Assembly: GCA_027490155.1 (NCBI GenBank) | Contig: JAIXYP010000021.1 | Span: 1-46,608, forward strand | DNA: 46,608 nt | DNA from: Cytophagaceae bacterium | Lineage (GTDB): Bacteria; Bacteroidota; Bacteroidia; Cytophagales; Flexibacteraceae | Direction: 5' to 3' | Shown: in pieces, positions 1 through 21,658 of the stretch | Position numbering within the stretch: the first letter of the stretch is position 1 | Layout: every line of letters begins with the position of its first letter | The notes under the pieces: model-generated | Databases searched by the model: none | Seen by the model: the letters and a program-made list of their open reading frames with translations, nothing else | Told to the model about the DNA's origin: nothing | Made by a program: the position numbers and the translations under genes

Positions 1-125
1 GCTTACGTGCTGGATGGCTTTTCGGTTGTGAATTGGTCTCAAACCTAGTAGATTCGCAACACGATCGCAGCAAGACCATTGCCTTTGTGGTTGTGAATTG
101 GTCTCAAACCTAGTAGATTCGCAAC
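1..125 (+). CRISPR. CRISPR array, trailing end (type II-C), two repeats visible
   Basis: Two identical 36-bp repeats lie at 25-60 and 90-125, each beginning GTTGTGAATTGG and ending GATTCGCAAC. A complete 29-bp spacer lies between them (61-89), and at least 24 bp of another spacer precedes the first (1-24). The array continues off the left edge, so its length is unknown. The first 15-16 nt of the repeat are complementary to the tracrRNA gene at 4743-4758, which sets the crRNA strand as +. No further repeat follows position 125; a strong + strand terminator comes next, so this is the transcriptional end of the array. The terminal repeat is not degenerate. Neither visible spacer has an obvious match elsewhere in this window. 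Confidence 0.93.
50..56 (+). promoter_or_regulatory. Possible promoter box inside the CRISPR repeat
   Basis: The 3' part of each repeat contains TAGATTCG (repeat positions 25-32; here from position 49, and again from 114), a 7 of 8 match to the Bacteroidota -7 box TAnnTTTG. The repeat starts with GTTG, giving a TTG about 20 bp upstream, close to the usual -33 spacing. Transcription would begin near the first bases of the next spacer. Repeat-internal promoters are established for Neisseria type II-C arrays; here this is an inference from sequence. Confidence 0.35.
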
Positions 126-128
126 ATT

Positions 129-170
129 AACGTCACAACCTGCAGATTACCAGCAGGTTGTGACGTTTTT
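129..170 (+). terminator. Intrinsic terminator of the CRISPR array
   Basis: A perfect 13-bp stem (131-143 CGTCACAACCTGC pairing with 153-165) closes a 9-nt loop and is followed by TTTTT (166-170). The T-run lies on the + strand side, so it ends transcripts coming from the array before they run antisense into cas2, whose stop codon is at 178. On the - strand the hairpin is followed by TTAAT, a weaker tail, though it could also serve cas2. Confidence 0.85.
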
Positions 171-177
171 GACTCTG

Positions 178-507
178 TTAAAATAGCTCCAATTGTTGTG
201 GACCTTCCTTTAGTTTGGCCTCTGAGCGGCAATAAAAGTTCACGATGTCCTGGTACTGGCGGTCGGTCATGTGCATGATCATTACATGGCCGGCGGGTGG
301 CAGATGATTTTTGATCCGCTGTATTTGTGCTTCCATCCGCTCTCTGCTGCCACAAAAGCAGTTGTACACAGAAAACTGTTGCATGCCGAATCCTAGTTTT
401 TCTAATGATTTACGGAAGGTCGTGTAGTCCTTGCGCTGTGCTTTGGTCAGGACGGGTAGGTCAAATAGTACGAAGATCCACATAATGCGATAAGGGGTTA
501 GTTCCAT
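178..507 (-). CDS. cas2: CRISPR-associated endoribonuclease Cas2
   Basis: 109 residues, the usual Cas2 length. Cas2 forms the Cas1-Cas2 integrase that captures and inserts new spacers. The start used is the ATG at 507 (MELTPYRIMWIFVLFDLP...). It gives the typical first beta strand with the conserved Asp in FVLFDLP, followed by a basic helix (KAQRKDY..FRKSL) and the LGF..QQFSVY strand. A longer reading from 549 would only add residues encoded inside cas1. It overlaps the end of cas1 by 10 nt, so the two are probably translationally coupled. It is the last gene of the cas9-cas1-cas2 operon and converges with the array; only 7 bp separate its stop from the array terminator's T-run. Confidence 0.93.
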   Translation of the reverse strand: MELTPYRIMWIFVLFDLPVLTKAQRKDYTTFRKSLEKLGFGMQQFSVYNCFCGSRERMEAQIQRIKNHLPPAGHVMIMHMTDRQYQDIVNFYCRSEAKLKEGPQQLELF

Positions 508-1403
508 GGCTCGATTAGTTCTAGGTCTGAATGGATGCCCAGCAGGCATTCGGCAAGGCTGGTTGCTGTTTGGCTGATGGCTTGGTGCAATGGTCGTGTT
601 CGGCCTCCTTGTTTAACTGGACGATGGATGATTCCGAGTAGTACTTGTTTGTCTGCCTTGGTCATGATTAAATCTTCTTGGGCTTCGGGGTAGTCTCTGA
701 TGTATTCATAGACCAGTTCATCAGCAATTGGTCGATAGGGTTCCATCAAGTCATCGGCAAGTGGGAAAGGGTTATACTGGTTTTTGTGGAAAATGCCTGG
801 TGCAAGCTGGAGGCCTGCACAAACCAATGACCTTGCCATCAAACTTCTGATGATGGCATAGGCATAGTTGAGCTTAGTATTTGGAGTTTCACCTTCTGGG
901 TCGCGCAAGAAATCATCCCCAAACATGAGTGGGAAATAGATGCGGGCAGCCTGACCCTCAAGAGCAGATTTATCCCCCTTTAGTACCTCTTTGGTCATAC
1001 GCTTGAGCCTCAATTGTTCCATTCCTTGTCGCTTAAGGCAGCAATACTGTTGCTCGATTTTGCTCTGGATCACCTTCTGCCAAAGCGCTGGTGCCAGTTT
1101 GGTTTGATTTTGGAATTGGGCAATCTGGTAACGTCCCTGAAGGGTATGACCAACAAAGGGCAACATCAGGCCACCTGGTAGATGCCGATCATCCGTTACT
1201 AGGATTGCCACCCTGTTTTTTATCAGTAGCTGCATGGCTCCTTGCGTGATAGTGACCTGCGGGTGATCAAGCTCCACAAACAAGATGGTGTCTGCGGAGC
1301 GTGTCACAGGTGGCGCACCTTCGGCTTTGGGCTGTATTACCAACTGCTCTAGCCTTGATGAAAGGTGAATTGCGGAACCGATATAGAGGGCTTGGTTACT
1401 CAT
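498..1403 (-). CDS. cas1: CRISPR-associated integrase Cas1 (type II)
   Basis: 301 residues, normal for type II Cas1, the metal-dependent integrase that acts with Cas2 in spacer acquisition. The C-terminal catalytic region is recognisable. It has EGQAARIYFPLMFG with the conserved Glu, a helix NTKLNYAYAIIRSLMARSLVCAGLQ, then GIFHKNQYNPFPLADDLMEPYRP, which supplies the conserved His and Asp. The N-terminal beta domain includes the ILFVELDHPQVTIT segment. Its ATG overlaps the cas9 stop by 8 nt (ATGAGTAA) and its own stop overlaps cas2 by 10 nt, so the three proteins are made from one transcript. No csn2 or cas4 follows, which fits subtype II-C. Confidence 0.95.
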   Translation of the reverse strand: MSNQALYIGSAIHLSSRLEQLVIQPKAEGAPPVTRSADTILFVELDHPQVTITQGAMQLLIKNRVAILVTDDRHLPGGLMLPFVGHTLQGRYQIAQFQNQTKLAPALWQKVIQSKIEQQYCCLKRQGMEQLRLKRMTKEVLKGDKSALEGQAARIYFPLMFGDDFLRDPEGETPNTKLNYAYAIIRSLMARSLVCAGLQLAPGIFHKNQYNPFPLADDLMEPYRPIADELVYEYIRDYPEAQEDLIMTKADKQVLLGIIHRPVKQGGRTRPLHQAISQTATSLAECLLGIHSDLELIEPWN

Positions 1404-4400
1404 TTGATAAAGTAAGAAAGCCAGCTGGATCTACTTTTAGTTTTAGGCAGGTGATTAGCGATAGACTATTGATTTTTCTGCCCACACTTTGGTCTTTTAA
1501 CTTTGCCTCTGTATTGTACTCCAGCTTTGCTAACAGTCCGAGCCTAAATGAACCTTGCAAGTTTGTTCTATCCAACTTTTGAACCCGATACACCTTGTAA
1601 AGCAGCTCCCGATAGAAGCCTTTGTTTTGGAGCATTTCATTGCTGAGCCCTTTGACATCAAAGCAAACCAGCTCATTTGCTTGCAGTGTAATCAACACCT
1701 CCTCATTTGGCTTTGGCTCAGGTTTGATTGCCAGTTCTCGTTTGTTGATTCTTTGGGCGGTTTCAAGGTATTGAATAACCTCCCCACGTTGTTTACCTGT
1801 GTCCACATTTTTGTACACTACAGCATGGTGGTTTCCTTCGGGGGCAACCCATGCGCCTTCTTTGTAGTTGGTGCGATCCTTGGCTCTGATCTGGACATGG
1901 CTAGGTGCGTTAATTGCAATGCGCACCTTTTTGATCGGTAGTTTGTTTTTGTGCACCACCTCTAGGTCCTTGTGCCAGTCTTTGGGCAGGTCATGACCTG
2001 GTTGCCACCCCGAATGTTTGGCCTTGATTGCTGCAAAAACACAATCACGGACTTGGTTGTCTACGATTTCCGTGATCTCCCCTTTCGTAAGTTTAGATAG
2101 GTCCTTGCGCACAGTTGAGACAAGCTCCCCTTGTGCCACATTGTCAAGTATGCGTTGCCCCGGTGGTACTTTAATTTTTCCATACAACGTTTCGTTGTGG
2201 AGGGCTTGGTTTGGCTTGTTGGTAATCTTGTAGCTGACAATAATGCGCTCCAGATGTTCCTTGGCTTGTTGCTGGAGATTTTCTTTTCCCCAAGGCACAG
2301 CACGTCGCACATTGGGTTTGTTGGCTAGCTGTGTGTCCCTTCTAGTCGAAAGGGCCACCACTAATGCATCCAAGGCGTGGTGGCGGTGGTCAAGCCTGCT
2401 TTTGTCACCTGCCCATTCGGACGGCAAAAGGTCTGCCTTGTCCAGTATCTCGTTGTAAATAAATGGATGGTTCCTTCCATTGATGTTTTTACCCGGGAAC
2501 CAATCATTCCTTAGTGAATGGGTCAATTTGCCATTCACATTGAGTACACCATCCGGTCCATTGTCTTTGACGACGGCCCTCAGGACATTCATCGCGGTGC
2601 GGGTAGCGGCCCTCGTATCATTGAGTTGACGCGTGCTAAAGCCCTTGTATTTATCTGGCAGGTCGGCCATCGATGGGCAGAAAAGCCGTTCCTTTTTGCC
2701 ATCAGGATAGCCATTCGGAAAACTACCGACGATTTCCCTAAGTTTGATGCTCCTGTGTTGGTTTAGCCACTCGAGTGGTAGCCGCATGCCTTTGTCCCGG
2801 TTTTCTGAAGCCAAGCACAAGACCTTGTTCATGTAGCTGTCATCTGCCCCCCCAGTAGCACCTTGGGGGATAATATGATCTACGTCAACAGTGGCGTTTG
2901 CACCAAAGATATCCTTAACACCAATCGGTAGCCCACTATAGATACATTTACCACCCTGTTCTTTCCAGAGTTTGTACTTGATGATTTGGGACTTGGAGGC
3001 GAATGGAATGCCTACTTCCTGCATGATATTCTCCTGAGCCTTGGCATTTTTGGCTTCGTTTTCTTTCTGCTTCTTGATATACTCATTGCGGTCATCTGGT
3101 GTCATGGCGGCTTCCCTTGCCAGCTCAAGGTGGATTCGATCAGGGTTGCCATAGTGTTTGATGACGCTATTAACGACACGTGCCAGCTCAAATAGGCAGG
3201 TACTGACAATCGGGTTCCTGACAGCCGTCCCTTCGATCAGGATACAGTTTTTGGTTAGGCTGCCTTTGCGTCTATCCACCTCGAAGGCAATGGACTTTTG
3301 GTACGTAGTCTTGTTGCCTATGCGTTGGTCATAAAGATTGTGACCCTGAAAGCCAGCCTCAGTGATGGCCTCATCATAACGTTTGCCGAGTGGCATGAAC
3401 TGCATCAATTGCTCGATAGCGGCCCTACTAAGGCTACTGGTTCCTTTTGGTGCGGGTGCTTTGCTAAAGAATGCCAAGGCTTGGCCTTCGGCTGCTTCTG
3501 GATACTTGGCTTCAAACCAGGCGATAAAGCCTTCCACACCTTGGTCTAGCTGGTCAAACAAGATTTTTGCTTCTTGGGCGACATAAAAGTAGTCCGTCAG
3601 GTCCTTCTTGGCCACTAGTTTGCTAAGTGCACTGTAGGTGAACTTGATAAATGGAGCACCTGCCAGCGCTTTTTGCTGGTCATAGTTGCTAGTGAGATCT
3701 TCTGGGTCACGGATATCGATTCCCTGTGGTTTCCCATCCTCTACATACTCCAACCTGATCGGCAGGGCCAGCTTTTTAATGTCTTCAAGTGCAACTTTGT
3801 CTGACTTGTAGAGCTTATCAATGATTTTGAGCCGTTTGGCATCAGGTAGCTCCTGAAACCTGATCTTGGCTTGCCTGTAGATCGAGTGCTGAAACTCAAG
3901 GTTATTGAGTTGCTGGTAAATGGCGAACTGTTGGAAAAGTGGGTCAGCTTTTGTGGTCCGTTTTTCGGTCGGCACAAACTTGCAGGCACCCCTCAGCTCC
4001 GTTTGCTTCTTGAGTTTTCGTTGAAAAAAGATGATTTGATCCTCAACGATCGCTCTATTTTCTGCTGTAAGGACATCTGGGTGGTGCTGGGCTTGCGTTT
4101 TCCAAATCAAGTCAAACTCTTGGGCGTACCATTTCCTGAAGGTATAACGGCTCCTTTTCTTGAGTGTTTTGTTGCCTTGGGACTCTAGTTTGTAGAGATA
4201 TTGGCCATAACTCATAAATCCGAGCTCCTCCCAATTGCTATCATTGGCCCCGATCATGCCGGTTTTAGGGCTGCCTTCGTACAAACTACCTGCCTCGGTG
4301 TCTTTCCCGTTGGACAGGTACCCCCTGCGTTTGACTAGGTGCAACATGATCCTCGCGAGTTCCACTGTTGTCAAAGGTCGCTCTAATGCTTCAGCACGTA

Positions 4401-4701
4401 GTCGGTATGGGTCCAACTCCTTAAACTGCTTTTGTTCGTCTGTGTTTTGTGGCCAGTACAGGTTATTCGAAAGCCACTTTACCAAGTCCTTACGGCGTTG
4501 TTGTTTACGGTCCAGCTGCAGCCTCATCCTAAAAGCACCTGCCCTTGTGGCATTTTTGCTGGTTTCTTTCTCACCCTGTCCTAGGTTATCGACCCCTGCA
4601 GGAAAGATCCTGACACCCATGTCAATGATTTGTTCTGCCTCGGTATCTACTAATGACCATCCTAAGGAGTTGGCACCAAGGTCTAAGCCTAAAATTTTCA
4701 T
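1396..4701 (-). CDS. cas9: Cas9 RNA-guided endonuclease, compact type II-C
   Basis: 1,101 residues, within the small type II-C size class. Cas9 uses crRNA and tracrRNA to cut matching DNA with its HNH and RuvC nucleases. Visible parts in order: RuvC-I KILGLDLGANSLGW with D7; an Arg-rich bridge helix near 58-76 (RMRLQLDRKQQRRKDL); the recognition lobe; RuvC-II IHLELAREAA with E526; the HNH domain around 588-635 with CIYSGLPI and DHIIP (H609), then N and K residues downstream; RuvC-III HHALDALVVAL with D778; then a C-terminal PAM-interacting region of about 300 residues. All catalytic residues are present, so it looks active. The start chosen is the ATG at 4701, which places the RuvC-I strand at the N terminus. 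A longer reading runs into the tracrRNA gene. The ATG follows an A-rich leader. Confidence 0.96.
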   Translation of the reverse strand: MKILGLDLGANSLGWSLVDTEAEQIIDMGVRIFPAGVDNLGQGEKETSKNATRAGAFRMRLQLDRKQQRRKDLVKWLSNNLYWPQNTDEQKQFKELDPYRLRAEALERPLTTVELARIMLHLVKRRGYLSNGKDTEAGSLYEGSPKTGMIGANDSNWEELGFMSYGQYLYKLESQGNKTLKKRSRYTFRKWYAQEFDLIWKTQAQHHPDVLTAENRAIVEDQIIFFQRKLKKQTELRGACKFVPTEKRTTKADPLFQQFAIYQQLNNLEFQHSIYRQAKIRFQELPDAKRLKIIDKLYKSDKVALEDIKKLALPIRLEYVEDGKPQGIDIRDPEDLTSNYDQQKALAGAPFIKFTYSALSKLVAKKDLTDYFYVAQEAKILFDQLDQGVEGFIAWFEAKYPEAAEGQALAFFSKAPAPKGTSSLSRAAIEQLMQFMPLGKRYDEAITEAGFQGHNLYDQRIGNKTTYQKSIAFEVDRRKGSLTKNCILIEGTAVRNPIVSTCLFELARVVNSVIKHYGNPDRIHLELAREAAMTPDDRNEYIKKQKENEAKNAKAQENIMQEVGIPFASKSQIIKYKLWKEQGGKCIYSGLPIGVKDIFGANATVDVDHIIPQGATGGADDSYMNKVLCLASENRDKGMRLPLEWLNQHRSIKLREIVGSFPNGYPDGKKERLFCPSMADLPDKYKGFSTRQLNDTRAATRTAMNVLRAVVKDNGPDGVLNVNGKLTHSLRNDWFPGKNINGRNHPFIYNEILDKADLLPSEWAGDKSRLDHRHHALDALVVALSTRRDTQLANKPNVRRAVPWGKENLQQQAKEHLERIIVSYKITNKPNQALHNETLYGKIKVPPGQRILDNVAQGELVSTVRKDLSKLTKGEITEIVDNQVRDCVFAAIKAKHSGWQPGHDLPKDWHKDLEVVHKNKLPIKKVRIAINAPSHVQIRAKDRTNYKEGAWVAPEGNHHAVVYKNVDTGKQRGEVIQYLETAQRINKRELAIKPEPKPNEEVLITLQANELVCFDVKGLSNEMLQNKGFYRELLYKVYRVQKLDRTNLQGSFRLGLLAKLEYNTEAKLKDQSVGRKINSLSLITCLKLKVDPAGFLTLSNE

Positions 4702-4708
4702 ACTTTTT

Positions 4709-4738
4709 TTTGTTGGATAGAAAGTTATCTTACTTTTG
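4709..4738 (+). promoter_or_regulatory. Bacteroidota-type promoter of the tracrRNA
   Basis: A perfect -7 box TACTTTTG (4731-4738) is preceded, after 18 bp, by TTTG at 4709-4712 in the -33 position. The expected start site, about five to seven bases past the box, falls at about 4743-4745, the first bases of the anti-repeat. The -33 element lies 8 bp from the cas9 start codon on the other strand. Confidence 0.75.
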
Positions 4739-4742
4739 TGAC

Positions 4743-4814
4743 GAGACCAATTCACAATAAGGGCCTGCTTGCAGGTCCGCAATTAGCGCCAGACGTGTCT
4801 GGCGCTTCTTTTTT
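4743..4814 (+). ncRNA. tracrRNA
   Basis: A trans-activating RNA of about 72 nt that pairs with the crRNA repeat and anchors it in Cas9. Bases 4743-4757 (GAGACCAATTCACAA) are the exact reverse complement of the 5' part of the CRISPR repeat, and 4758 adds a G:U pair, giving a 16-bp duplex. A first hairpin follows at 4761-4778 (GGGCCTG with CAGGTCC, one G:U). A second hairpin of up to 10 bp (4785-4794 with 4797-4806) ends in a T-run at 4809-4814 and doubles as the intrinsic terminator. A consensus promoter sits directly upstream. The anti-repeat is shorter than is usual for type II-C because the predicted transcript starts inside it. Confidence 0.88.
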
Positions 4815-4838
4815 GTCCCTACTACTGGCCCTCCGCCC

Positions 4839-4867
4839 AATTGCCGAATATCATATTTTCGGCAATT
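4839..4867. promoter_or_regulatory. Inverted repeat upstream of cas9/tracrRNA
   Basis: A perfect 10-bp inverted repeat, AATTGCCGAA (4839-4848) and TTCGGCAATT (4858-4867), is separated by an AT-rich 9-nt centre. It lies about 140 bp upstream of the cas9 start and 25 bp past the tracrRNA terminator. Neither strand has a T-run after it, so an operator or an RNA structure in the cas9 leader is more likely than a terminator. I found no consensus -7 box for cas9. Confidence 0.4.
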
Positions 4868-5168
4868 AGACGTGATTGCGCTCCAACTTACGGATTTGTT
4901 TTGATCCCTGTTCACACCTTTGCTACCAAGGCAAGGTTTTTTTGACGAACCTCAATTATCGCCAATTCGCTTCCCGTTTGGTTAAGCCAATATTTTTTCT
5001 AGCAGACGTTTTTCTCTATTCTTACCTAGTCCAGCACCCTAACCCTACCGGTATTTAACCAAGGGAGATTTCCAATTCAATACAGTTGATGACACCTGCT
5101 GGCTTTATAGTTCTTCCCTATACGCTGCTGAGCAATAACCGCTAGCAGACCGGTTTGGGCTAATGGGT
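4868..5168. other. Non-coding gap between the CRISPR locus and the UMF1 transporter gene
   Basis: About 300 bp with no convincing gene. Both flanking genes are read on the - strand, so it must hold the 3' end of the transporter transcript and the cas9 promoter. I see no strong terminator hairpin and no perfect TAnnTTTG box on the - strand. Confidence 0.5.
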
Positions 5169-17073: not shown

Positions 17074-17293
17074 CCCAAGTATTTTTACTGCCACTGATGC
17101 CAATTCGCCCGATTGCGAATCAGTTAATCAAAACTAAAGATCTTGTTTAGGAGATCTTGGATCAAAGAGCAGTATTTAGGCCCAAAGCTGGTCCCGATCC
17201 AGCGGACACGTTTGCTCCTATCCGAGGATTGACGAAGGTCAAAGGGCGATTTCTCACCATTGCTTAGTGTCTGGACAAGACCACAATCCCCTT

Positions 17294-20200
17294 ATGTTTT
17301 TTGATGCAATCATCACCTATAGCTTGCACAACAAGCTGGTGATCGGTATGCTGGTGTTGCTGCTGGCCTTTTGGGGCATCAGGGCCTATACCCAGCTACC
17401 GATAGATGCCGTACCTGACATCACCAACAATCAGGTTCAGATCATTACCCAATCGCCTGCCTTAGCTGCCCTCGAGATTGAGCAACTGATCACTAGTCCG
17501 CTCGAAATCAGTATGTCCAACCTGCCGATGGTGGAGGAGGTACGGTCTATTTCTCGCTTTGGGCTATCGGTAATTACTGTGGTATTTGCCGAGGATGCTG
17601 ACCTCTATAAGTGCCGTCAGCTCACTGCCGAGCAGATCAAAAAAGCAGAGGCCGACATCCCTGCCAATATCGGAAGGCCAACTTTGGCACCAATCACGAC
17701 GGGCCTTGGCGAAATCTACCAATATACCATCGACGTTGAGCCAGGGTACGAGCATCTCTATGACCTAACTGACCTACGCACCACGCAGGACTGGATTGTC
17801 AAACGCCAGCTGTCAGGCATCCCGGGTGTGATCGAGGTTAGCAGCTTCGGTGGTAACGTCAAGGAGTATGAGGTCTCTGTGGATCCGGGCGTCCTAGAGG
17901 CCAACAAAACCACACTGGCCGAAGTCTATGCCGCCCTGGGCAACAATAATAGCAACACGGGTGGCAGCTACCTCGAAAAGGCCGAGAATGTCTATTTTAT
18001 TCGGGCCGAAGGGATGATCAAGTCCCTTGCCGATATCGAAAATAGTGTTGTCAAAACGGTCAATGGTACCCCATTATTGATCAGGCACATCGGAAAAGTA
18101 AAGTGGGGAAAAGCTGTGCGGTATGGTGCGATGACCATCAATGGACAAAGCGAAACCGCTGGCGGCATCGTGATGATGCTACGAGGGGCCAACTCAGCTA
18201 AGGTCATCGAGGCAGTCAAGATCCGCATCGCCCAAATCCAGAAAAGCCTGCCTAAAGGGCTGGTCATTGTTCCCTTCCTCGATCGTAGCAAATTGGTTAA
18301 TTCCGCAGTTAGCACCGTTGCTACCAACCTCATTGAGGGGGGGCTCATCGTGATCTTTGTGCTGGTTTTGCTGCTGGGCAACCTGCGGGCAGGTCTGATC
18401 GTCGCCTCCGTAATCCCACTCGCCATGCTGTTTGCTATCGGGATGATGGAGCTATTTGGCATTTCGGCAAACCTAATGTCTTTAGGCGCCATCGATTTTG
18501 GGCTGGTCGTTGATGGGGCAGTCATCATTGTAGAGAGTATTTACCACCACCTAGTCTTGCGCTACGCTGGTCTACCTGGTCGCCTTAATCAGGATCAATT
18601 GGACCATGTAGTTCATGATGCAGCACTCGGTATCCGGAAGTCAGCCTCATTTGGAGAAATCATCATCTTGATGGTCTATTTGCCCATATTGGCCCTTGTG
18701 GGGGTCGAAGGCAAGATGTTTAGGCCAATGGCCGAAACCGTGATTTTCACCATCATCGGAGCTTTGATCCTGTCCCTAACATGGGTGCCAGTTGCTTCTG
18801 CTTTATTCATGCCACGGCGGTACAGCCTCAAGCCAACATGGGCTGATCGGTTTATTGGTGCCTGCCAACGTGGTTACCTACCCCTACTCAAGGCCAGCCT
18901 TCGCCACGGAGCCGTTATCTTGGTTATTGCCTTAGCTCTATTCGGATTTAGCCTCTGGCAACTGACCAACCTAGGAGGTGAATTCATGCCAGAGCTAGAC
19001 GAAGGTGACTTTGCCGTCGAAACCCGGCTGCCTGCCGGTAGCTCACTGTCCGAAACAACTCGGGCTACCCTTGAGGCCGAAAAAATCCTGCTTAAGTATC
19101 CAGAAGTCAGCCAAGTGATTGGCAAAATCGGCACCAGCGAGGTCCCAACCGACCCGATGCCACTCGAAAGTGCTGATCTAATGGTCGTCCTAAAACCACG
19201 CAAATCATGGCCGGACCCTAGCAAAGGCCGTGAAGAGCTCGCTGCTGAATTGGAGGAGGCGCTATCGGTGCTCCCGGGCGTTGCATTTGAGTTTCAGCAG
19301 CCCATCCAGATGCGATTCAACGAGTTGATGACCGGTGTGCGGTCGGATGTTGCTATTAAAATCTATGGGGATAGCCTTCATACCCTTTTTGATCGAGCAA
19401 ATGACCTAGCAGCCAAACTTAAGAATGTGGAGGGCATCAATGCGATCAAGGTGGAGGCCATTGGGGCAGTGCCACAGCTACAAGTCAACTATGACCGCGC
19501 AAAACTCGCCTCATTTGGCCTTAACATCGCCTCGGTTAATCAGTTAGTCGAAGCCTCTTTTGCAGGCGGCTATGCAGGCCAAGTCTATGAAGGTGAACGT
19601 CGTTTTGGGCTTGTCGTACGTCTGGACTCAGCCATACGTCAAAGTCCCAATCAACTAGCAAAGCTACTAGTACCGCTTCCGGGTGGGGGCATTGTCCCAC
19701 TGGGCAACATTGCAGATGTCAGGCTCTTAGCAGCCCCTATGCAGATTTCGAGGGACAATACCCATCGGCGGATTGTGGTCGGCGTGGGTGTTTCTGGCCG
19801 GGATATGGAGTCCGTCGTGAACGAAATCAAGGATAAAATAGCACCAAAGGTCAAGCTCCCCTCTGGTTATTACATGACTTATGGTGGGCAGTTTCAGAAT
19901 TTTGAGCGGGCCAAGGCACGCTTAATGATTGCGGTGCCTCTGGCCTTAATGCTAATTTTTGTGTTATTGTTCATCACATTCGGGTCGGTGGTGCAGGCAA
20001 TGTTGATCTTCACGGCGATACCCTTGTCTGCTATTGGTGGTGTCTGGGCCCTAACGCTCAGGGGAATGCCATTTAGTATATCGGCAGGTGTGGGTTTCAT
20101 AGCCTTGTTTGGTGTTGCCGTCCTAAACGGTATCGTCCTGATAGGTCACCTCAATGGCTTACGGCAGAAAGGTCATGGCACGTTCTACAGCATCTTGGTA

Positions 20201-21658
20201 GGTGCGATCGAGCGCCTACGCCCCGTGATGTTAACGGCTTTGGTCGCCAGCCTAGGCTTTATACCGATGGCTCTATCTACTTCAGGCGGAGCTGAGGTTC
20301 AGCGTCCCCTAGCAACAGTGGTGATCGGTGGGCTGGTGACAAGCACGATTTTGACCCTTGTCGTTTTACCCGTCCTATACTTGCTGTCAGAGCGTTGGAA
20401 ATATCGTAAAGGTGGTCCCAACCCAAAGGTGCCGAAGCTGGTTTCTGCGATTGTTTTGGTGGGGTTATTGTTTGCTAGTGTAGGAGCGATCGCTCAACCA
20501 AAGGCAGCCGTTTCTGTCAACCAAGGTCCGCTTAGCTTAGTAGCTGCCCTTGACCTCGCCAAGGCCCAAAACCCTGCCGTCGAGATCAGTAAGTTGGAGC
20601 TAGAACAAACCATGGCGATGGTCGGCACCGCCTTCGACCCTACCAAAACCACTGTTGACTATCAATATGGCCGCACCCAGGTATCCACCAATAACGACTA
20701 TACCATTGCCATCGGCCAGACCTTTGCACTACCTGGTGTCTATAACGCCCAAAGGCAAGTTTATGAAGGCCATGCTCAGATAGCAACCAGCAAGGTGGCC
20801 CTCACACAGGCTCAAGTTAGCTTGCAGGTCCGAAATCTATACTTTCAATACCTATCCAGCACCCGCCGGTCCCGCATCTTGCAACACCAGATCGATGTCT
20901 ATACCGATTTGGCACGGGTGGCAGCTGCCAAACTCAAGGAGGGCGAGTCGATCAAGCTAGCATACCTGAGTGCAACAGCCAAAAACCAAGAGCTGAGCCT
21001 TTTGGCACGTCAAGAGGAAGCAGACCGCAAAGAGTTAGTTGCCGAGCTAGCCTACCTACTAAAACTCGATGCCACTACGCTCCTGATCGATACCAGCAAC
21101 ATAGGTAACCGGACATTGACCCTACCGACTAGAATTGATAGCGTTAAACATCCCGAGCTGGATGGTGCCCAAAATGCACTTCTGACAGCGCAAGCCCAGA
21201 CCAAACTAGAAAGCCGAAGGCTGCTGCCAGAAGTCAAACTTGGGTATGGCAATCAGTCTATCGAAGGGGTCAATGGGCAACAATTTGCCATCCTTGGCCT
21301 TAATGTCCCGCTGTTCGCTCGGGCTACCCAACGCCGTAAAGCTGCTGCTCAAATTGCAACAAAGGCCGCTGGTGCCAATATCGATTTGGTGCGAACTCGG
21401 CTGAGCAAAGAAATCCAGATGCGCCAACGGATGGCAGCACAATACCAACTGCAGCTGCAATACTATCAGCAAACGGGCCTCCGACAGGCAGACGAGTTGA
21501 TCAGTGTAGGCCTCAAATCCTACAAGGCTGGTGAGGTGGACTATTCTGACTATATCCTGAGCACCTCCCAAGCATGGGATATCCGGTTAGCCTATCAGGA
21601 CATGTGGCAGAAAGCGGCACTTAATATCAACGTCTTGCTTTACCTGCAGGGGCAATAA
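17294..21658 (+). CDS. CzcA/CusA-type heavy-metal RND permease fused to a TolC-like outer-membrane channel
   Basis: 1,454 residues from the ATG at 17294 (a GTG at 17267 is possible). Residues 1-1040 form a complete 12-helix heavy-metal RND permease. Helix 4 reads DFGLVVDGAVIIVE with D401, D407 and E414, the same spacing as the proton-relay acids of CzcA (Zn, Co, Cd type). Residues 1045-1070 (LVSAIVLVGLLFASVGAIAQ) are a hydrophobic segment resembling a signal peptide. Residues about 1075-1454 are a TolC/CzcC-type outer-membrane factor, with LVAALDLAKAQNPAVEISKLEL, ALPGVYNAQRQVYEG, repeated Gln/Ala-rich coiled-coil helices and a final SYKAGEVDYSDYILSTSQAWDIRLAYQD. The permease and channel are therefore one polypeptide, a form seen in Bacteroidota. 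The adaptor gene follows 74 bp downstream. Internal cleavage at the AIAQ site is possible. Confidence 0.93.
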   Translation: MFFDAIITYSLHNKLVIGMLVLLLAFWGIRAYTQLPIDAVPDITNNQVQIITQSPALAALEIEQLITSPLEISMSNLPMVEEVRSISRFGLSVITVVFAEDADLYKCRQLTAEQIKKAEADIPANIGRPTLAPITTGLGEIYQYTIDVEPGYEHLYDLTDLRTTQDWIVKRQLSGIPGVIEVSSFGGNVKEYEVSVDPGVLEANKTTLAEVYAALGNNNSNTGGSYLEKAENVYFIRAEGMIKSLADIENSVVKTVNGTPLLIRHIGKVKWGKAVRYGAMTINGQSETAGGIVMMLRGANSAKVIEAVKIRIAQIQKSLPKGLVIVPFLDRSKLVNSAVSTVATNLIEGGLIVIFVLVLLLGNLRAGLIVASVIPLAMLFAIGMMELFGISANLMSLGAIDFGLVVDGAVIIVESIYHHLVLRYAGLPGRLNQDQLDHVVHDAALGIRKSASFGEIIILMVYLPILALVGVEGKMFRPMAETVIFTIIGALILSLTWVPVASALFMPRRYSLKPTWADRFIGACQRGYLPLLKASLRHGAVILVIALALFGFSLWQLTNLGGEFMPELDEGDFAVETRLPAGSSLSETTRATLEAEKILLKYPEVSQVIGKIGTSEVPTDPMPLESADLMVVLKPRKSWPDPSKGREELAAELEEALSVLPGVAFEFQQPIQMRFNELMTGVRSDVAIKIYGDSLHTLFDRANDLAAKLKNVEGINAIKVEAIGAVPQLQVNYDRAKLASFGLNIASVNQLVEASFAGGYAGQVYEGERRFGLVVRLDSAIRQSPNQLAKLLVPLPGGGIVPLGNIADVRLLAAPMQISRDNTHRRIVVGVGVSGRDMESVVNEIKDKIAPKVKLPSGYYMTYGGQFQNFERAKARLMIAVPLALMLIFVLLFITFGSVVQAMLIFTAIPLSAIGGVWALTLRGMPFSISAGVGFIALFGVAVLNGIVLIGHLNGLRQKGHGTFYSILVGAIERLRPVMLTALVASLGFIPMALSTSGGAEVQRPLATVVIGGLVTSTILTLVVLPVLYLLSERWKYRKGGPNPKVPKLVSAIVLVGLLFASVGAIAQPKAAVSVNQGPLSLVAALDLAKAQNPAVEISKLELEQTMAMVGTAFDPTKTTVDYQYGRTQVSTNNDYTIAIGQTFALPGVYNAQRQVYEGHAQIATSKVALTQAQVSLQVRNLYFQYLSSTRRSRILQHQIDVYTDLARVAAAKLKEGESIKLAYLSATAKNQELSLLARQEEADRKELVAELAYLLKLDATTLLIDTSNIGNRTLTLPTRIDSVKHPELDGAQNALLTAQAQTKLESRRLLPEVKLGYGNQSIEGVNGQQFAILGLNVPLFARATQRRKAAAQIATKAAGANIDLVRTRLSKEIQMRQRMAAQYQLQLQYYQQTGLRQADELISVGLKSYKAGEVDYSDYILSTSQAWDIRLAYQDMWQKAALNINVLLYLQGQ

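Follow-up and report, generated by a model that had tools for sequence, protein, structure and literature searches.

What kind of CRISPR (clustered regularly interspaced short palindromic repeats)-Cas9 system lies at the beginning of contig JAIXYP010000021.1 of a Cytophagaceae bacterium (assembly GCA_027490155.1), and how does its predicted guide RNA compare with those of its relatives? The window, that is, the whole stretch of 46,608 nucleotides (nt) that was analysed, is contig C34 of a 3.99-Mb genome in 69 contigs, and the CRISPR-Cas9 parts span its bases 1-4814, from an array end and a hairpin through cas2, cas1 and cas9 to a predicted trans-activating CRISPR RNA (tracrRNA) divergent from cas9 (Table 1). 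These parts very probably form a type II-C immune locus of this Bacteroidota (Cytophagales) bacterium. The assignment is made because cas9, cas1 and cas2 occur without a fourth cas gene in the window, Cas1 is of type II, Cas9 is compact and an adjacent tracrRNA matches the array. A preliminary description of this DNA had proposed the same type, which the present evidence supports, and had placed the array end, the terminator-like hairpin, the three genes and the parts of the tracrRNA where they are found here. Neither csn2 (type II-A) nor cas4 (type II-B) lies beside cas9-cas1-cas2 in the window according to the list of open reading frames (ORFs) and Pfam; on the far side of a second array piece, on contig C27 (see below), ORFs were inspected by eye only.

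Table 1. Features of the CRISPR-Cas9 locus, in window coordinates.
Feature	Position	Strand	Details and evidence
Partial spacer at window start	1-24		Array end
CRISPR array end: two identical 36-nt repeats, one 29-nt spacer	25..125	+	Repeats 25-60 and 90-125
Terminator-like hairpin	129..170	+	15-nt perfect arms 129-143/153-167; between array and cas2
cas2, 109 amino acids (aa) from likely start 507	178..507	-	Longer ORF extends to 549; NCBIfam, Pfam, PADLOC
cas1, type II, 301 aa	498..1403	-	Ends overlap cas2 and cas9; NCBIfam, Pfam, PADLOC
cas9, 1,101 aa	1396..4701	-	NCBIfam, RuvC/HNH residues
Bacteroidetes-type promoter-like site for tracrRNA, TTTG-N18-TACTTTTG	4709..4738	+
Predicted tracrRNA, about 72-74 nt	4741..4814	+	Anti-repeat, stem-loop, terminator

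The three genes are intact ORFs with overlapping ends and constitute one operon on the minus strand. Their products have been assigned by NCBIfam to cas_Csn1 (Cas9, 2.2e-164, 549 bits against a cut-off of 100), cas1_NMENI (Cas1, 4e-68, 230 bits against 120) and cas2 (Cas2, 6.4e-15, 55 bits against 24.5), and Pfam and PADLOC agree, the Pfam domains of Cas9 being RuvC_III and HNH_4. As a Cas9d, the protein falls below the NCBIfam cut-off (162 bits against 375). The RuvC residues D7, E526, H775 and D778 and the HNH residues D608, H609 and N634 are present, which bears out the 1,101-residue protein with D7, E526, H609 and D778 of the preliminary description and adds D608, N634 and H775; all of them except D608 are invariant across 48 aligned Cas9s. 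In Cas1, E149, H206 and D217/D218 stand in blocks common to 14 aligned relatives; for Cas2, similarity to relatives generally sets in around residues 10-20 of the longer ORF. An AlphaFold2 model of Cas9 (48 sequences) has a mean predicted local distance difference test score (pLDDT) of 75.4 and a predicted template modelling score of 0.64; the stretch at residues ~453-492, which contains an insertion not shared by the nine remaining rows of alignment A1, is modelled with pLDDT <50. The model fits solved Cas9s end to end. CbCas9 comes first in the structural ranking (Z 29.4, root-mean-square deviation (rmsd) 5.2, 836 residues aligned); St1Cas9 (Z 25.4) and Nme1Cas9 (Z 25.9, rmsd 9.4, 881 residues) rank equally, the latter being the structure that Foldseek puts at the top, and ThermoCas9 (Z 24.9, rmsd 9.9, 861 residues) and iGeoCas9 (Z 24.0) are also matched. 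We take CbCas9, Nme1Cas9, GeoCas9 and ThermoCas9 to be type II-C, and St1Cas9 to be type II-A.

The array itself lies on two contigs. The window opens inside the array, its base 1 being also that of contig C34, and contig C27 (58,927 bases) ends with 35 further repeats (56626-58906), identical to those of the window and in the same orientation. Judging from the repeat and its orientation, both pieces would belong to one array; since both contigs end inside it, the array has been broken by the assembly and its true length is 37 repeats or more. The locus had been called complete, which is right for the genes and the RNA and wrong for the array, split across the two contigs. All 37 repeats (two in the window and 35 on C27) are 36 nt long, without a single change, and complete spacers measure 29-31 nt, giving the regular repeat-spacer array characteristic of type II CRISPR-Cas. 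The hairpin that follows it has a five-T run at 166-170, two T of which lie within the stem. Promoters within the repeats have already been proposed for the II-C system of F. columnare, according to the passages cited from PMC8092290. In the repeat of a related locus (L091, genome G346), an exact Bacteroidetes -7 motif, TAATTTTG, is found near the 3' end, and would fit such repeat-encoded promoters, as would TAGATTCG in the window repeat (49-56), one mismatch from TAnnTTTG. A promoter inside each repeat of the window was considered and dropped, one mismatch being weak.

The anti-repeat expected of a type II system is also present at the sequence level. Bases 4743-4757 form a 15-nt exact complement of the repeat, to which 4758 adds a G-U pair, and this stretch has no other match outside the array in the window, even at three mismatches. 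It is followed by a stem-loop (4761-4778) and a terminator (4785-4814), a 9-pair hairpin with T6 ending at 4814, and the predicted RNA folds with a z of -3.04. If the usual spacing of Bacteroidetes promoters is assumed, transcription would start near 4741, for a length of about 72 nt. In many relatives the tracrRNA likewise lies divergent just upstream of cas9, with a CACAAYAAGG-like motif and then hairpins and a T run. The distance from CACAA to the end of the T run is 62 nt in the window and 61 in a flavobacterial relative; the short part of the predicted tracrRNA is the anti-repeat, not the part from CACAA on. The best -7 motif precedes CACAA by 14 nt in the window and by 29-47 nt in 22 of 24 others, the remaining two being L134 (64 nt) and L160 (13 nt, with two mismatches). 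The adjective "short" in the preliminary description holds as a prediction, by comparison with relatives; the "unusual clarity" claimed for the RNA is overstated, many relatives giving equally clear tracrRNAs. Rfam matches to mir-374 and sR3 were under the gathering scores and were taken as chance. Within 4720-4738, a -7-like site for cas9 on the minus strand (TAACTTTC, 4720-4727, one mismatch from TAnnTTTG) adjoins the tracrRNA TACTTTTG on the plus strand (4731-4738); because the two promoter-like sites stand side by side, the transcripts may share or compete for this stretch. A second inverted repeat (4834-4872, 18 nt, 83% complementary) is found just beyond the tracrRNA terminator.

Gene content, catalytic residues, the 37 identical repeats, the repeat/anti-repeat complementarity and the hairpins are read directly from the DNA, and the families to which the parts belong suggest how transcription, processing, cutting and acquisition may proceed, probably in the manner of other II-C systems. 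The array would be transcribed on the plus strand toward cas2 and would stop at the hairpin of 129-170. A tracrRNA of about 72 nt, divergent from cas9, would pair with the 5' part of each repeat through a 16-base-pair (bp) duplex, and the resulting CRISPR RNA (crRNA):tracrRNA dual RNA would load Cas9, whose HNH and RuvC sites would cut the two strands of matching DNA beside a protospacer-adjacent motif (PAM). Cas1-Cas2 would add spacers.

How far the Cas9 stands from those already known was approached through several collections. The best full-length BLAST identities are 31.0% (L051) and 30.8% (L079, the same as L097), and the best in multiple alignments is 34% (L097 or its twin L079). Single stretches of relatives reach 45%; no full-length match above 34% was found in the genome searches. 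At E 0.001 and with its own genome excluded, Cas9 matched 6 of 38 relatives, 1 of 10 genomes of the family and 37 of 240 of the order; 25 of 394 phylum genomes matched at E 1e-30 and 8 of 394 class genomes at E 1e-35. The only other genome of the genus examined gave no match, and the other Cas9 of the family (L179, genome G010, the one match among the ten other genomes) is not a tree neighbour. The locus is thus not a trait common to the close kin examined. A single-protein scan gave 12 pattern matches and no relative in genome_contigs, and none in viral_contigs; an alignment-based scan gave at least 463 relatives among at least 595 pattern matches; among the 80 relatives retained, the highest segment identity is 31%. 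Plasmid and phage Cas9 records show at most 31% identity among the matches listed (10 of 57 records and 1 record, respectively).

These distances bear on the suggestion that the protein is merely a close orthologue of a characterised Cas9, with nothing new to offer. Its fold and domains are those of known Cas9s, and type II systems have been surveyed in large metagenomic studies (PMC10278012 and PMC11043407, in the parts consulted), whose sequences lie outside the comparison. On the other hand, the solved Cas9s are all distant: the best phmmer match has an E of 1.2e-61 and is split into two stretches, and the 50 structural alignments listed show 16-27% identity. The genome, plasmid and phage identities given above are likewise low. 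We regard this suggestion as quite improbable; the close characterised orthologue that the preliminary description had named as grounds for giving up its claim did not appear in the collections searched. For the window protein, no study was found in open-access main texts for Cas9 with Cytophagales or for II-C Cas9 orthologs with Bacteroidetes.

The Cas9 phylogeny recommended in the preliminary description places the protein with L097 and L051 in a tree of 68 Cas9s, with a Shimodaira-Hasegawa approximate likelihood-ratio (SH-aLRT) support of 99; this and a second tree of 79 rows contain only relatives found with the window protein, with no II-A or II-B reference rows. The window Cas9 is a member of a sparse, deep lineage of compact Bacteroidota Cas9s. 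Its size had been described as among the smaller ones, which is true against the 1,300-1,500 aa of other Cas9s of the phylum; among its compact relatives, which span about 980-1,220 aa in a set where only ORFs of 900-1,250 aa were kept, it is ordinary.

A further peculiarity concerns the repeat:anti-repeat duplex, in which repeat bases 1-16 of the window are paired without interruption (16 bp). In most of the compact relatives examined, about 8 bp are followed by an internal loop, and the anti-repeat is longer. The comparison started from 89 loci with a readable repeat, 84 of them with a candidate anti-repeat, and retained 45 that passed motif and folding filters, many of them close relatives; 31 of the 45 have at most 9 uninterrupted pairs before the loop and 14 have at least 11. 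L091 was added by hand, bypassing the folding filter, because its anti-repeat had been masked as a repeat copy and a wrong site taken. Eleven of the 14 smooth-duplex loci belong to a single clade of Bacteroidota, 7 of them having a Cas9 of at least 1,300 aa, and the others are the window, L051 (through L091) and L138, whose duplex is doubtful since another site was also found for it. When the duplex labels are mapped onto the tree (37 of 68 rows), 3 changes are needed, against a shuffled mean of about 11.5. The clade formed by L204, L206, L207, L211-L216, L160 and L181 (Cas9s of 1,154-1,410 aa) has near-uninterrupted duplexes, unlike the compact clade, and its tracrRNAs share a body that reads AAGGATTATTCCGTTGTGAAAAC or nearly so. 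The loop-free duplex had suggested that the window Cas9 might be a shortened large Bacteroidota Cas9; this is rejected by the approximately unbiased (AU) test (p 8.1e-5), which involves long branches and a group picked after the tree was seen. Because the AU test rejects the window from the large clade, the smooth duplex probably arose separately in the lineage of the window. A tracrRNA can be read for two of the three members of this lineage (window and L051), and there the internal loop is missing or has shrunk to a single mismatch. As a tentative proposal, which we hold to be somewhat less probable than its opposite, the window, L051 and L097 may represent a distinct sparse compact lineage that lost the duplex loop separately from the large Bacteroidota Cas9s; the window tracrRNA would start almost at the anti-repeat (about 72 nt, 16 bp), the loop would not be needed and little 5' trimming would take place. 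According to passages of PMC10278012, the canonical stem-bulge-stem fold is not followed by many of the tracrRNAs predicted for type II systems. The deep Cas9 branch and the shortened, loop-free duplex are variations within type II-C.

Several results weigh against a working locus with a short tracrRNA and a well-placed Cas9, and concern the spacers, the promoter, the duplex and the tree. Searching its own genome with the window array piece returned the array, the anti-repeat and short chance matches only (best 90% over 21 nt), and the phage records gave 4 matches at E 1 to 4, which is chance level. The C27 array piece found 2 of 50,697 phage records (E 2, chance level) and 1 of 72,556 plasmid records (E 0.6). 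Among 241 genomes of the order, with two candidates scored per genome, the own genome too, the same piece matched 24 at E <=0.05, its own genome included; the largest number of matches, 26, is in G011, where they are mostly 66-72% identical, fairly evenly spaced and array-like. Exact searches of viral_contigs with 7 spacer ends (19-20 nt; ~37 spacers in all) found 0 of 7. The comparison of spacers with phages, from which the PAM was to be deduced, has thus failed: none of the spacers searched gave a convincing protospacer from which a PAM could be read, and targeting by the array is putative. A decaying or silent remnant, whose genes are still readable and whose fast-evolving Cas9 no longer works, would agree with this lack and with the end branch of the window Cas9, the longest of the 79-row tree (1.53) and the second longest of the 68-Cas9 tree (1.54). 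Such a remnant is nevertheless very improbable, given three intact overlapping ORFs, the catalytic residues of Cas9 and Cas1 in place, 37 repeats without change and a tracrRNA that matches the repeat exactly over 15 nt.

As for the promoter, the preliminary description had predicted it together with a terminator. The terminator hairpin with its T6 and a promoter-like site are both there, but the window contains the promoter pattern about as often as chance predicts (2 observed, 1.06 expected), and 47 of 500 shuffles of the upstream stretch of the window produce an exact -7 motif. Because the pattern alone is not significant in the window, the site gains weight only from relatives: exact TAnnTTTG lies upstream of 14 of 25 tracrRNAs, window included, against a shuffled mean of 1.87 and a maximum of 7 in 500 rounds, a count that is support and not a probability, the rows being related. 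At up to one mismatch the motif is uninformative (24 of 25, shuffled mean 18.6). The 25 tracrRNAs are 24 of 32 motif hits chosen by eye plus L094, the 8 dropped being outside the group, second hits or unconvincing, and for L121 the promoter count and the duplex comparison use different candidate anti-repeat sites. A site so weak by itself is also what might be seen if the true tracrRNA lay elsewhere or were longer, for example started further upstream, with 4741-4814 only part of it; energy folding, moreover, permits some additional weak pairs past the 16 bp. Yet the anti-repeat at 4743-4757 is the sole one in the window outside the array, the bases upstream of 4743 do not extend its exact complementarity, and promoter, anti-repeat, stem-loop and terminator follow one another as in relatives, which makes an RNA of another place or length unlikely. 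The duplex, for its part, is predicted by minimum-energy pairing only. Finally, the placement of Cas9 depends on a long branch (1.54) and on a rapid tree search, and in the 79-row tree the window pairs with L097 at 82, L051 being found only inside an open group of five rows.

Outside the locus, the genes next past cas9 code for an Atg22-like transporter and an M28 peptidase (ORF list, Pfam). A recent foreign origin was considered from base composition and dropped, the G+C fraction being 0.479 in the cas genes and 0.487 in the rest of the window. AcrB-type efflux pumps and outer-membrane efflux domains are usually separate proteins; at 17267-21658, a single ORF of 1,463 aa fuses the former (residues 15-1040) with the latter (1294-1435).

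With these results, an intact-looking small Cas9 system, with three overlapping cas genes and a short, bounded tracrRNA, is added from a sparsely sampled branch, and with the duplexes of 45 loci side by side one can ask, simply and with lineage taken into account, whether the duplex loop is needed. Even close II-C orthologues differ in the PAM recognised, according to PMC9433092, and compact Cas9s from new branches are useful for this reason. The printed systems that invite comparison are flavobacterial, namely Fp2Cas9 of F. psychrophilum (PMC10309648) and the II-C system of F. columnare (PMC8092290), each as described in the parts cited. Compact II-C loci of Flavobacteriaceae were compared with the window (L096, L098, L100, L105, L108, L109, L117 and L122). 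Like the window, they have a compact Cas9 with cas1/cas2 nearby and, upstream of cas9, a divergently oriented tracrRNA preceded by a Bacteroidetes -7 motif, either exact or with one mismatch, and their repeats likewise begin with GTTGTG or GTTGTA and measure 36 nt where read whole; their Cas9s are about 32% identical to that of the window. In their duplexes an internal loop separates 8 bp from about 15 further bp, whereas the 16 bp of the window are continuous; their -7 motif precedes CACAA mostly by 32-35 nt, against 14 nt in the window. Another difference is the position of cas1/cas2: in these eight loci and L095 they lie kilobases from cas9 on the opposite strand (cas2 only in L105), in contrast with the single operon of the window. 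Among the loci of 36 relatives, 20 have cas1 or cas2 on the cas9 strand and 9, those of the flavobacterial kind, have them on the other; in the remaining 7, several of which are truncated, neither gene was seen.

Closer to the window in the tree are L097 (from an uncultured Bacteroidia metagenome-assembled genome, CALAJH010000032.1) and L051/L091 (G346), which share its clade (SH-aLRT 99) at 31-34% identity. Upstream of the L097 cas9, no tracrRNA was seen by eye in about 500 bases (4500-5010), and an ORF with an ATP-binding-like motif starts where it would be expected. L091 resembles the window in its almost unbroken duplex, where a single mismatch leaves 25 of the initial 26 repeat bases paired, and in the strand order of cas9-cas1-cas2, and differs in a duplex about 9 bp longer. 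Among solved Cas9s, CbCas9, Nme1Cas9, ThermoCas9 and iGeoCas9 have the same end-to-end fold as the window Cas9, at 22-27% identity in the alignments, and the first of these is a chain of 1,442 residues, against the 1,101 aa of the protein described here.

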